Shown in pieces: positions 25,819 through 30,566 of a stretch of 64,000 bases of DNA (the first letter of the stretch is position 1; the number at the start of each line of letters is the position of its first letter). The notes beneath the pieces are model-generated. The model saw nothing but the letters and a program-made list of their open reading frames with translations. It did no database searches and was not told the origin of the DNA. Origin of the DNA: Acidobacteriaceae bacterium (GTDB lineage: Bacteria; Acidobacteriota; Terriglobia; Terriglobales; Acidobacteriaceae); the NCBI GenBank assembly GCA_003138365.1, contig PLFY01000133.1, forward strand, positions 15,294 to 79,293, read 5' to 3'. The position numbers and the translations under genes were made by a program.

Positions 25819-26253
25819 CTACCGGCCCGAGCTGCCAAAGCCCTTTTCGGCGCGGGCGGAGTCTTCCAGGTCTTCCACCTGGGCCACGGCCCCGGTGAGG
25901 ACGGGAACGGGGATCATCTGGGCGATTTTCTCGCCCGCTTTCAGCTCGACGGCCGCCTCACCCAGGTTGGTCATGAGCACAAGAATCTCGCCCCGGTAGC
26001 CGGCATCGATGACCCCACCCGTGGTGGCGATCCCTTTGGCCGCCATGGACGAGCGGTCGCGCACCAGCAGGCCCAGCGCAGCGCCGGTGGCGGGATGGCG
26101 GGCCTCGACGGCAATGCCGGTGCGCACTCTTACCGTGGCGTGGGAGGCCAGAAGCGTGGCTTCCAACGCAAACAGGTCGTAGCCCATATCCTCGCCGGGG
26201 TGGGCCACCACCGGCAGCCGGGCGTTCTCTTCCAACAGCTTCACTCGCAGCAT
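25819..26253 (-). CDS. dut: dUTP diphosphatase
   Basis: GYDLFALE, VRDRSSMAAKGI, GGVIDAGYRGEILVLMTN, GEKIAQMIPVPV, RAEKGFGSSGR. Confidence 0.95.
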   Translation of the reverse strand: MLRVKLLEENARLPVVAHPGEDMGYDLFALEATLLASHATVRVRTGIAVEARHPATGAALGLLVRDRSSMAAKGIATTGGVIDAGYRGEILVLMTNLGEAAVELKAGEKIAQMIPVPVLTGAVAQVEDLEDSARAEKGFGSSGR

Positions 26254-26277
26254 GGATTGATGGTAAAGCAAGGCAGC

Positions 26278-26590: not shown

Positions 26591-26611
26591 TCGTTTTGGT
26601 CAAAACAATTC

Positions 26612-27142
26612 GGCAAAAGGACCTGTAAGCCGAATTCTGTCGTGTGCGGTCATTCCTCTAGACGCCGCGTTGCCGCGGACGTTCATCAGCGACCTACCCG
26701 GAGGTTCCGGCAATTGCTTAAGCCGCCTGGGCGCATCGGGCCGATGCGCAACGCCGCCTGGCTCTTGGCGGGCGATTCCCTCCCTATTTGGTCTTGCTCC
26801 GTGTGGGGTTTACCTTGACCCCAGCCTTTACAGGCTGAGCGGTGCGCTCTTACCGCACCATTTCACCCTTACCCCGGCGCTGGAGTTTCCGCAACGACGG
26901 GCGTACCCGGCAAGCCGGGCCAACTCGGGTATTGCGTTTCCAGGGAGGCCCTCCGACCGGATCCGAAGAAGCGGGGAGGGGTAGCCGAGGCGGTATCTTT
27001 TCTGTGGCACTGGCCGTCCATGGGTTTTGAGGCCCACGTCCCGGACGTTATCCGGCACACTGCCCTGCGGAGTTCGGACTTTCCTCCCCCGGCGGACTCG
27101 CTTGCGCGAAACCACCGGCAGCGACCGCCCGGTCCTCCTGCC
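26612..27142 (-). ncRNA. rnpB: RNase P RNA, bacterial type A-like
   Basis: Minus strand contains GAGGAAAGTCCGAACTCC, GGTGAAATGGTGCGGTAAGAGCGCACCGC and ACAGAATTCGGCTTACAGGTCC; ends pair as P1 (GGCAGGAGGACC / GGTCCTTTTGCC). Confidence 0.95.
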
Positions 27143-27221: not shown

Positions 27222-27275
27222 GGCACGACTTCAGTCGTGCCGCAAATGCCGCATAATAATCGTGGGCTTCAGCCC
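27222..27275. repeat. REP-like double hairpin
   Basis: GGCACGACT-tc-AGTCGTGCC (27222-27241) followed by GGGCT-tc-AGCCC (27264-27275). Confidence 0.7.
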
Positions 27276-27300
27276 CTGGGGGAAGCTCTTCGGTGAAGCC

Positions 27301-27666
27301 ATGATGGAATACAAAGGTTATGCCGCTGGCCCCATCGACTTCGATCCGGAGGATAAGACATTCTCCGGCACGGTCGCCGGGCTTCGGGATGTGATTCATT
27401 TTGAGGGCAGGACTGCGACGGAGCTGGAGCGCGCCTTCCGCGGGAGCATCGACAGCTATCTGGAACTTTGCGCCGAGACCGGCCAGCAGCCCGACCGCCC
27501 CTTCAACGGAAAAATTCTGGCGCGCACCGAGTCGGAACTGCACCGCAAAGCCGCCCTGCGCGCGGCGGTCGAAGGCGTGAGTTTGAGCCGTTGGATCAGC
27601 CGGCAGATTGAAAGCGCAAGGCGAGCGGTACGGCAACCGCAGCCCGGTCCTCCTGCCAAGATCTAG
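27301..27666 (+). CDS. HicB-family antitoxin-like protein (no hicA seen)
   Basis: YKGYAAGPIDFDPEDKTFSGTVAGLRDVIHFEGRTATELERAFRGSIDSYLE, then ARTESELHRKAALRAAVEGVSLSRWISRQIE. Confidence 0.85.
   Translation: MMEYKGYAAGPIDFDPEDKTFSGTVAGLRDVIHFEGRTATELERAFRGSIDSYLELCAETGQQPDRPFNGKILARTESELHRKAALRAAVEGVSLSRWISRQIESARRAVRQPQPGPPAKI
27642..27659. repeat. 18-bp direct repeat copy 2 (inside hicB C-terminal codons)
   Basis: gcccggtcctcctgccaa identical to 27127..27144. Confidence 0.95.
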
Positions 27667-27684: not shown

Positions 27685-28599
27685 TTACTGGCTTCGATAG
27701 GGGATCATTGAATCTTTGACATCTACACAATAGATATCCTGTTTTTTGAGCAGCATCTCAACAGACTTCCGTGCTTCGGCCGGATTTGGACATGGACCAA
27801 TAAAAAGTCTTTTGATTTCGAGGCGTTGTTCGGGACAAGTCAACGGGATTTTTAAATACGGAATCAGCATCGAGCTACCCTGCCTGAAAAACACATCGTT
27901 GCCAAATTGGCGCAAGTGAACCACCAATCGCCATTCACGCTCCTCATGAAATGCATAATCTTTTGTAACTGCACAATCTCGACTGAAATCCCAGAAATGC
28001 CTAAGTGCAATACCTGCCGGGGTATGACGCCCAACCTGTTCCGTAGAAGGAAGTGTACGTTTGATCCTCTCTGCTTCTTCGATATATGAATCGACCACCT
28101 TCTGAATTTTTCCTTTCAATTGCCTTTCAACATCATCATCGAAATACTGACAAGGAATAAGAGGGTTATCGGGTGAGTAATGTGGTCCAGGAATATTTTC
28201 AGAGAAGTGCTGACCAATGGCCTTCAGGTAATTCGGCGAAAAGCCAATACTATAGCCGCCGGATTTTCCGGAATATGCTCTCCATTGGCTCAAGAGATTA
28301 CCATCTTCAGAAAAAGACGTTGCGTAATAATCCTGTGAAGTAATTTCGAATAGTATTGTTTCACCTTGGCTTATTACTCCCTCATCGCCGATTCTTTTCG
28401 CCAACTCTTGAAATAAAAGCTTAGAAACAATTTGACCTTCACTTGCATCGTTCAAATATCGATAATGAGTCGCCCAAATCTTCTTGTCCTTGTCTCCAAG
28501 GATCCCCAGCAGCCCTTCCGGCGTTGTGTAGTGATAGAGCAGCCCATCAGGCTCGGCATTCTCTTGCTCGGGTCGATGCTCTTGTTCCTCCATTGTCAC
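27685..28599 (-). CDS. DUF2971 domain protein
   Basis: LLYHYTTPEGLLGIL...IWATHYRYLNDASEG...YYATSFSEDGNLLSQWRAYSGKSGGYSIGFS. Confidence 0.8.
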   Translation of the reverse strand: MTMEEQEHRPEQENAEPDGLLYHYTTPEGLLGILGDKDKKIWATHYRYLNDASEGQIVSKLLFQELAKRIGDEGVISQGETILFEITSQDYYATSFSEDGNLLSQWRAYSGKSGGYSIGFSPNYLKAIGQHFSENIPGPHYSPDNPLIPCQYFDDDVERQLKGKIQKVVDSYIEEAERIKRTLPSTEQVGRHTPAGIALRHFWDFSRDCAVTKDYAFHEEREWRLVVHLRQFGNDVFFRQGSSMLIPYLKIPLTCPEQRLEIKRLFIGPCPNPAEARKSVEMLLKKQDIYCVDVKDSMIPYRSQ

Positions 28600-28964
28600 C
28601 CCTCCGATTCCAATTCCCGGAGCACTTTCACAATCTGCAGGCGCAGATCAGGCACGTCAACTTGCACGGAATCCCAGATCATCGCCGAGCTTACGGCAAA
28701 ATATCCGTGCGCCACACGATTTCTCATTCCATATATTTGCGCAAAGGGAATCGAAGGATACTTGGTGGCGAACTCGGGTCCGACCTCAAGCAGGTTGTTG
28801 GCGGCTTCGCCGATGATCTCGATGTTACGGACAACGGCGTCCTGCAACATTTGATTGGCTACGAACTGTTCCTCGGTCACGCCCGCAGTGTACTCAAGGC
28901 TCCGATCCGCAGCCTCCAGCATGTGGAGGAGATAGTCCTTGGCGCGGAATTCGTGTTTGTTCAA
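28596..28964 (-). CDS. hepT: HepT-like HEPN toxin (DUF86 family)
   Basis: RNIEIIGEAANNL and RX4HXY motif (RNRVAHGY); TTG start overlapping mntA stop. Confidence 0.9.
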   Translation of the reverse strand: MNKHEFRAKDYLLHMLEAADRSLEYTAGVTEEQFVANQMLQDAVVRNIEIIGEAANNLLEVGPEFATKYPSIPFAQIYGMRNRVAHGYFAVSSAMIWDSVQVDVPDLRLQIVKVLRELESEG

Positions 28965-29251
28965 AGGGATGCGGCCTCGGCGAGAACCTTCTCGCGAAAG
29001 CGGGGATGAAGTTCGCCCGGTGTGCGGACGTCGACCTTGACCCCAAGCGCCTTTTCCAACTCGATCTGCAGGCCGGCCATATCCAGCAGGCTGGCACGAG
29101 GCGCCGGGTCAACGAGGATGTCCAGGTCGCTGCCTTCCTGGTCATCGCCGTGCAGCACAGAGCCGAACACGCGCGGATTCGCCATGCCCGCCTCAAGAAC
29201 AAGCTGGCGAATGGTCTCGCGATGCTGCGGCAATACCTCAGACGGTCTCAT
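28961..29251 (-). CDS. mntA: MntA-like minimal nucleotidyltransferase antitoxin
   Basis: FGSVLHGDDQEGSDLDILVD = GSX10DXD. Confidence 0.9.
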   Translation of the reverse strand: MRPSEVLPQHRETIRQLVLEAGMANPRVFGSVLHGDDQEGSDLDILVDPAPRASLLDMAGLQIELEKALGVKVDVRTPGELHPRFREKVLAEAASL

Positions 29252-29347: not shown

Positions 29348-30433
29348 CTATCGGTTTGGCTTCGGGGTGTCCCGCTTGGGATGATGCCGGACGGATTTCT
29401 CGATGGCGTTCCATTTGGCGCGGGTCTCTTTGGCGAGGCGGGGGTTGGTTTTACGCTCCAGATGGGCTAGTTCCTTCTGCATCTTTTGGTAGTTGGCTAG
29501 GCGGCCAGGGTCGAGGTTGGCGGCGGTTACGGTGCAACCGGGCTCGGCGCCATGGGTGCAGTCGCGGAAGCGGCAGGCGAGGGCTAGCTGCTGGATGTCG
29601 TCGAAGCTGTCTTCAAGCTTTTCGGTGGACGCCCAGAGCTGAACTTCGCGGAGGCCGGGCAGGTCCATGAGCAGCCAGCCACGGGGCATCACAAACAACT
29701 GGCGGCTGGTGGTGGTGTGGCGGCCGCGGCTGTCGCTGGCGCGGACGGGGGTTGTACGCTGGCGCTCGTCGCCGAGAAGCCGGTTGAGGATGGTGGATTT
29801 GCCCACGCCGGAAGAGCCGATGAGGGCGGCGGTTTCTCCGGGGGCAAGCAAAGCAGGGAGCGCGTCCAGACCATGATCGGAGATCGCGCTGATGGGGAGC
29901 ACGGTGATGCCGGGGCTCAACAGTTGTGTGCTGGCGACAACCTCGGCCAGGTCGAGGCCAAGCTCGGCGGTGAGGTCGGTCTTGTTGAGCAGGACCACGG
30001 GGCGAGCGCCGCTTTCGTTGGCCAGGACAAGAAAGCGCTCGATGCGGCGCGGGTTGTAGTCGCGATCCAAACCGCTGACGATGAAGAGCACATCAATGTT
30101 GGCGGCCAGCACCTGCTCGCGGACTTCGCGTTCCGGCTGCTTGCGCGAGAGTTTGGTTTTGCGGTTGAGTACGCTGACGATGACCGCGGCATCGTTGCGC
30201 AGGACGACCCAGTCTCCCACAGCCGGCCAGAGGGACGAAGACTTGCGCAGCAAGCCGCTGACGCTCGCGTCGATCTCGCCGGTTTCAGTCCACACCAGGA
30301 AGCGGCCATGGTTGGCCGAGGCGACGCGGCCGGGAATGCCTGTTGTGAGCTGGTTCTGAAAGAAGTCGCACCAGCCCAGTTTTTCAAGGCCAAATTCTCC
30401 GAGATTCGATTGTTCAAGATTCACGGGGACCAT
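29348..30433 (-). CDS. rsgA: Small ribosomal subunit biogenesis GTPase RsgA
   Basis: GSSGVGKSTILNRLLG, DSRGRHTTTSRQLFVMP, LMDLPGLREVQLW, zinc motif CRFRDCTHGAEPGC. Confidence 0.94.
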   Translation of the reverse strand: MVPVNLEQSNLGEFGLEKLGWCDFFQNQLTTGIPGRVASANHGRFLVWTETGEIDASVSGLLRKSSSLWPAVGDWVVLRNDAAVIVSVLNRKTKLSRKQPEREVREQVLAANIDVLFIVSGLDRDYNPRRIERFLVLANESGARPVVLLNKTDLTAELGLDLAEVVASTQLLSPGITVLPISAISDHGLDALPALLAPGETAALIGSSGVGKSTILNRLLGDERQRTTPVRASDSRGRHTTTSRQLFVMPRGWLLMDLPGLREVQLWASTEKLEDSFDDIQQLALACRFRDCTHGAEPGCTVTAANLDPGRLANYQKMQKELAHLERKTNPRLAKETRAKWNAIEKSVRHHPKRDTPKPNR

Positions 30434-30566
30434 CCTCTCTTTGTTGGAGCGAAGAGACACACCTCAGCCAACCTCTGGCGGCGAGGCAGTGTGTGAGAGG
30501 ACGAACTAGACAATGACGTTCAGCGGCGCTCCGTGTAAACACAATGTATCAAATCGGCCCCGCCGC

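Follow-up and report, generated by a model that had tools for sequence, protein, structure and literature searches.

We propose that the mntA, hepT and DUF2971 genes found in the window, the whole stretch of 64,000 nucleotides from an Acidobacteriaceae bacterium analysed here, occupy a mini defence hotspot located between rsgA and rnpB and marked by mntA, in which DUF2971 is an independent cargo; we assign this reading a probability of about 0.6. The three genes are adjacent and co-directional and form one tight cassette on the minus strand, where the order is rsgA, mntA, hepT, DUF2971, then rnpB and dut (Table 1). An earlier note had presented them as a translationally coupled candidate three-component system. 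Such a dedicated system is not supported, since mntA-DUF2971 arrangements exist without hepT, alternative cargos are encountered, DUF2971 is absent from the rnpB loci devoid of mntA, and DUF2971 genes are usually solitary elsewhere, with slot copies that do not group as one clade.

Table 1. Features of the rsgA-rnpB region (window coordinates)
Feature	Position	Strand	Evidence and remarks
rsgA	29348..30460	-	RsgA_GTPase E 1e-46; borders the slot on the left
mntA, MNT-type nucleotidyltransferase antitoxin, 96 aa	28961..29251	-	PF01909; GSX10DXD; PADLOC PDC-S09 E 3e-29
hepT, toxin (HEPN RNase); its TTG start overlaps the stop of mntA	28596..28964	-	PF01934 (HepT-like) E 4e-25; RNRVAHGY = RX4HXY
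DUF2971 gene from the conserved ATG	27685..28593	-	PF11185 E 6e-10; PDC-S31 E 1e-4; phrog_1762 E 9e-21; AF2 model pLDDT 87.7; start set by comparison with relatives
Mechanical DUF2971 ORF, GTG start at 28599	27685..28599	-	
Orphan HicB-like gene in the DUF2971-rnpB interval	27262..27666	+	PF05534 E 6e-16
REP-like palindrome GGCACGACTTCAGTCGTGCC	27222..27241	.	
rnpB (RNase P RNA)	26610..27140	-	RF00010, 238 bits; borders the slot on the right
dut (dUTPase), conserved downstream gene	25819..26271	-	From sequence; homologue downstream of rnpB in relatives

All three cassette genes give Pfam matches above cut-off (NTP_transf_2, E 5e-9, for mntA; HepT-like and DUF2971 as in Table 1). The motifs reported in the earlier note, GSX10DXD in mntA (GSVLHGDDQEGSDLD) and RX4HXY in hepT, are both present, and the TTGA overlap between these genes is real: the 4-bp overlap is kept in relatives, where it reads ATGA or GTGA, and its conservation with differing start codons confirms the unusual TTG start of hepT. 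The idea that all three genes overlap holds at this junction and probably fails at the next. The GTGA overlap described between hepT and DUF2971 depends on a GTG start, whereas DUF2971 genes in relatives share a common ATG start (MEEQ or a near variant, MDEQ or MEEK) and point to the ATG at 28593, which lies 2 nt beyond the stop codon of hepT. hepT and DUF2971 therefore abut, and the GTGA overlap is probably an artefact of start mis-calling. The gap between them is also 2 nt in G944, G853 and G977, and roughly 50 nt in G884 and G897.

The first two genes present the features of a class I HepT/MntA pair: a PF01909 gene lies beside a PF01934 gene in the window, and GSX10DXD and RX4HXY are the defining motifs of this class (PMC7641770). 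Class membership rests on domain adjacency and motifs, since the NCBIfam equivalog cut-offs of 60 bits each, which the two proteins do not reach (35.9 and 28.9 bits), are a naming threshold for close orthologues and not a mechanistic criterion. In other family members, HepT is established as an RNase kept silent by MntA through AMPylation of the HXY tyrosine, and the motifs present here suggest the same regulation. The pair shares with characterized type VII systems (PMC7641770; PMC11586414) the position of PF01909 upstream of PF01934, the start/stop overlap and both motifs. It differs from them by the cargo gene directly behind it and by the frequent loss of hepT with retention of mntA.

Relatives of MntA were traced through the family and genus, and 48 loci were fetched (the window, L048, L148-L157, L181-L206 and L241-L250), mostly from draft genomes in which contig ends conceal some neighbours. 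The complete trio was found in the genome of the window (G000) and again in five further members of its genus, and this recurrence argues against a chance arrangement; the trio is located at rnpB in G000, G884, G944, G853 and G897 and at a contig end in G977. The neighbourhood comparison thus bears out DUF2971 directly 3' of hepT as a recurrent layout, and the occurrence in a single genome that the earlier note had named as fatal to its proposal is not what is observed. Within the genus, identity to the window proteins amounts to 65-81% for MntA and to about 28-33% for the slot DUF2971. The DUF2971 gene of G853 is frameshifted; at L185, mntA and hepT are intact and DUF2971 is broken into three frames. 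Three genomes carry DUF2971 behind mntA without an intact hepT: G965 (L048) retains a 28-codon hepT remnant and an intact DUF2971, G524 (L041) has no hepT and the start of its DUF2971 gene overlaps the stop codon of mntA (ATGA), and in G952 an ATGAAT stub separates mntA from the DUF2971 gene behind it. DUF2971 is lacking at six loci with the order mntA-hepT-rnpB (G660, G642, G888, G789, G972 and G969). A reversed DUF2971-mntA-hepT order occurs in G199, which belongs to a different family. At L012 (645-3356), this reversed order outside the family includes an Mrr-like nuclease, the row being Mrr-like nuclease, DUF2971, MntA and HepT.

The site occupied by the cassette, between rsgA and rnpB, can be very short in relatives lacking mntA, with as little as 28-84 bp from the end of rsgA to rnpB. 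Elsewhere in the genus, other genes are encountered there behind mntA: G962b has a SmaI-type restriction endonuclease and a DNA methylase, G955 a protein with a NOV_C domain, and G913b the nucleotidyltransferase/exonuclease pair of PADLOC model PDC-M70, these three being the few rnpB-linked loci with alternative cargo. Outside the set of loci shown to be rnpB-linked, mntA precedes AbiU in G956 (E 6e-128) and a PDC-M70 pair in G909. At L187 and L189, a PDC-M70-like nucleotidyltransferase and a DEDD exonuclease lie antisense behind mntA. Unrelated known defence genes are therefore found at the same site in relatives, as is expected of a defence hotspot. Within the genus, DUF2971 is present at 6/13 rnpB loci with mntA versus 0/52 without it (Fisher p 2e-5, uncorrected for relatedness and thus overstating the independence of these related genomes). 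A generic hotspot at rnpB operating without mntA was considered and rejected: upstream of rnpB in 19 mntA-less genomes, we observed ordinary genes such as rsgA and lipB, and none of the 49 ORFs matched PADLOC at 1e-5. Defence hotspots on the chromosomes of E. coli and Pseudomonas (PMC10121019; PMC12629846) similarly hold exchangeable defence genes at one site; by comparison, the present slot, which lies between rsgA and rnpB, is very small and is marked by an antitoxin gene, and no integrase was seen in it.

The constant element of these loci is MntA: all 48 loci encode an intact protein of 96-97 aa, and 47 of them preserve GSX10DXD. By contrast, about 22/48 loci have no intact hepT, the gene being frameshifted, truncated or missing; some of the single frameshifts may reflect sequencing errors, which cannot explain the large deletions or the complete absences; at 21 of these 22 loci MntA is intact with its catalytic motif. 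This retention may provide protection against incoming hepT, the ordinary explanation, or involve other partners. A broader proposal, which we regard as unlikely, would make MntA a promiscuous, always-kept antitoxin whose downstream partner (HepT, DUF2971 or others) is exchanged, in other words a modular nucleotidyltransferase-controlled defence platform with AMPylation restraining different effectors. That an antitoxin of the AMPylating type systematically stays intact once its toxin is lost bears on the question of orphan antitoxins, as guards against incoming toxins or as proteins with other targets.

DUF2971 itself is usually a lone gene, and neither MntA nor HepT was found near 76 of 80 public loci. 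In a first phylogenetic tree, a single origin of the slot copies was not rejected; it was rejected once the tree included solitary copies from this genus (p-AU 4e-8), and the slot copies do not form one clade. The G884 protein groups 100/100 with the solitary copies of G958 and G956 yet retains the local MEE(Q/K) start, from which we infer that the copies were recruited separately or that the coding body was replaced in place. Although slot proteins share only 28-39% identity, their motif residues are kept. Thirteen positions (H23, Y24, T25, D51, E54, Q105, W106, R107, Y109, K213, E220, E222 and R224) are invariant across 72 relatives, which suggests an enzyme. AlphaFold gives a confident model (pLDDT 87.7); Foldseek returned nothing from the PDB at E below 0.5, ADP-ribosyltransferases (ART) included, so that no solved structural relative was found and DUF2971 is not filed as an ART. 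A search of a viral structure library gave weak matches only. Tox-ART-HYD1 and AbiGi profiles weakly match 18/72 and 9/72 relatives, respectively (best 7e-5), and at the YHYT motif the profile aligns locally with DarT and AbiGi (P 2e-4; A3 against unrelated controls, 0.3-0.5). The candidate H/Y/E triad (H23, Y109, E220/E222) is invariant, and only motif I aligns with DarT.

Several known families can be compared with this protein. AbiGi of the lactococcal AbiG system has the (Y/F)HF(T) and E-x-EWR motifs of DUF2971 and weak profile similarity to it, but the overall family differs, the window protein has no PF10899 match, and no AbiGii partner lies beside it as in the AbiGi-then-AbiGii order of AbiG. 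A parallel with an AbiGii nucleotidyltransferase was dropped, as Pfam gives AbiGii no such domain. DarT-type ADP-ribosyltransferases share the N-terminal YH-x-T...L..I motif and differ by the lack of a fold match and by the alignment of this one motif only. PADLOC PDC-S31 models, an unvalidated single-gene candidate from a guilt-by-embedding screen (PDCs: PMC12988326), match many DUF2971 relatives and represent the same sequence family as Pfam DUF2971; here the score is weak (E 1e-4) and the gene stands in a cassette with a toxin-antitoxin pair. A defence function is very probable for DUF2971, which is probably an effector distantly resembling AbiGi and ADP-ribosyltransferases; an NAD-dependent effector is the leading but unproven assignment.

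The proposal closest to the earlier note is a dedicated module in which MntA silences both HepT and DUF2971, or in which DUF2971 is a second toxin or trigger acting through MntA. The position of DUF2971 in the exact place of hepT in G524 and close behind mntA in G952, the intact MntA motif at loci without intact hepT, and the reversed trio of G199 are in its favour. Cooperation could also be read, against the hotspot, from the more frequent preservation of hepT with DUF2971 (6/9) than with other cargo (0/5; p 0.03, ignoring kinship). We nevertheless consider such a module rather unlikely: the linkage of DUF2971 to mntA-hepT is neither constant nor exclusive, the gene being mostly solitary, absent from most mntA-hepT loci and persisting without hepT in G524, G952 and G965, the same mntA precedes unrelated cargos, and many intact mntA genes have neither hepT nor DUF2971 behind them. 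Even less probable is the idea that DUF2971 serves as an accessory antitoxin or regulator of HepT. Its location directly behind hepT and the antitoxin label of AbiGi, a possible distant relative, in Pfam would agree with this role, but it is kept where hepT is gone (G524, G952 and G965) and missing from most loci that have mntA-hepT.

Passive insertion would require neither cooperation nor defence: the site upstream of rnpB would tolerate insertions, and DUF2971 would hitchhike without defence selection. The vicinity of an RNA gene, the REP-like palindromes nearby and the frameshifted G853 copy are compatible with it. We find it improbable, as the genes encountered behind mntA have known or candidate roles in defence, none of them appears at the mntA-less rnpB loci sampled, and the divergent slot DUF2971 proteins still hold their motif residues.

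We therefore retain the hotspot, where a type VII mntA-hepT module would reside between rsgA and rnpB and varied anti-phage genes would be swapped behind mntA, possibly by homologous recombination between the conserved flanks, with the slot stabilized by the toxin-antitoxin module. DUF2971 would be a self-contained effector, presumably on the same transcript and independent of HepT/MntA. Its DarT/AbiGi-like domain, with conserved H23, Y109 and E220/E222, suggests abortive action in which sensing of infection would lead to modification of an essential target or consumption of NAD+; the absence of a PDB fold by Foldseek, ART included, counts against this reading, and so does the small number of alternative-cargo loci. 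A compact rsgA-rnpB defence slot in Acidobacteriota offers a testable locus in place of an isolated three-gene guess and points to DUF2971, an uncharacterized family that a single paper of the library searched mentions by name, as a defence gene.

The HicB-like gene beside the cassette has no HicA partner that we could see. Homologues adjoin the cassette in G897 (95% identical) and the AbiU locus in G956 (87% identical), the loci concerned being L190 and L244, and these values, where MntA is only about 70-76% identical, suggest recent transfer. The genome of the window encodes a second, divergent DUF2971 protein (G000:C218:33718-33939; L002, L036), with no MntA or HepT nearby. The REP-like palindrome pattern GGCACGACTNNAGTCGTGCC is present both beside the window cassette (27222-27241) and at the hepT deletion of L048 (940-959).
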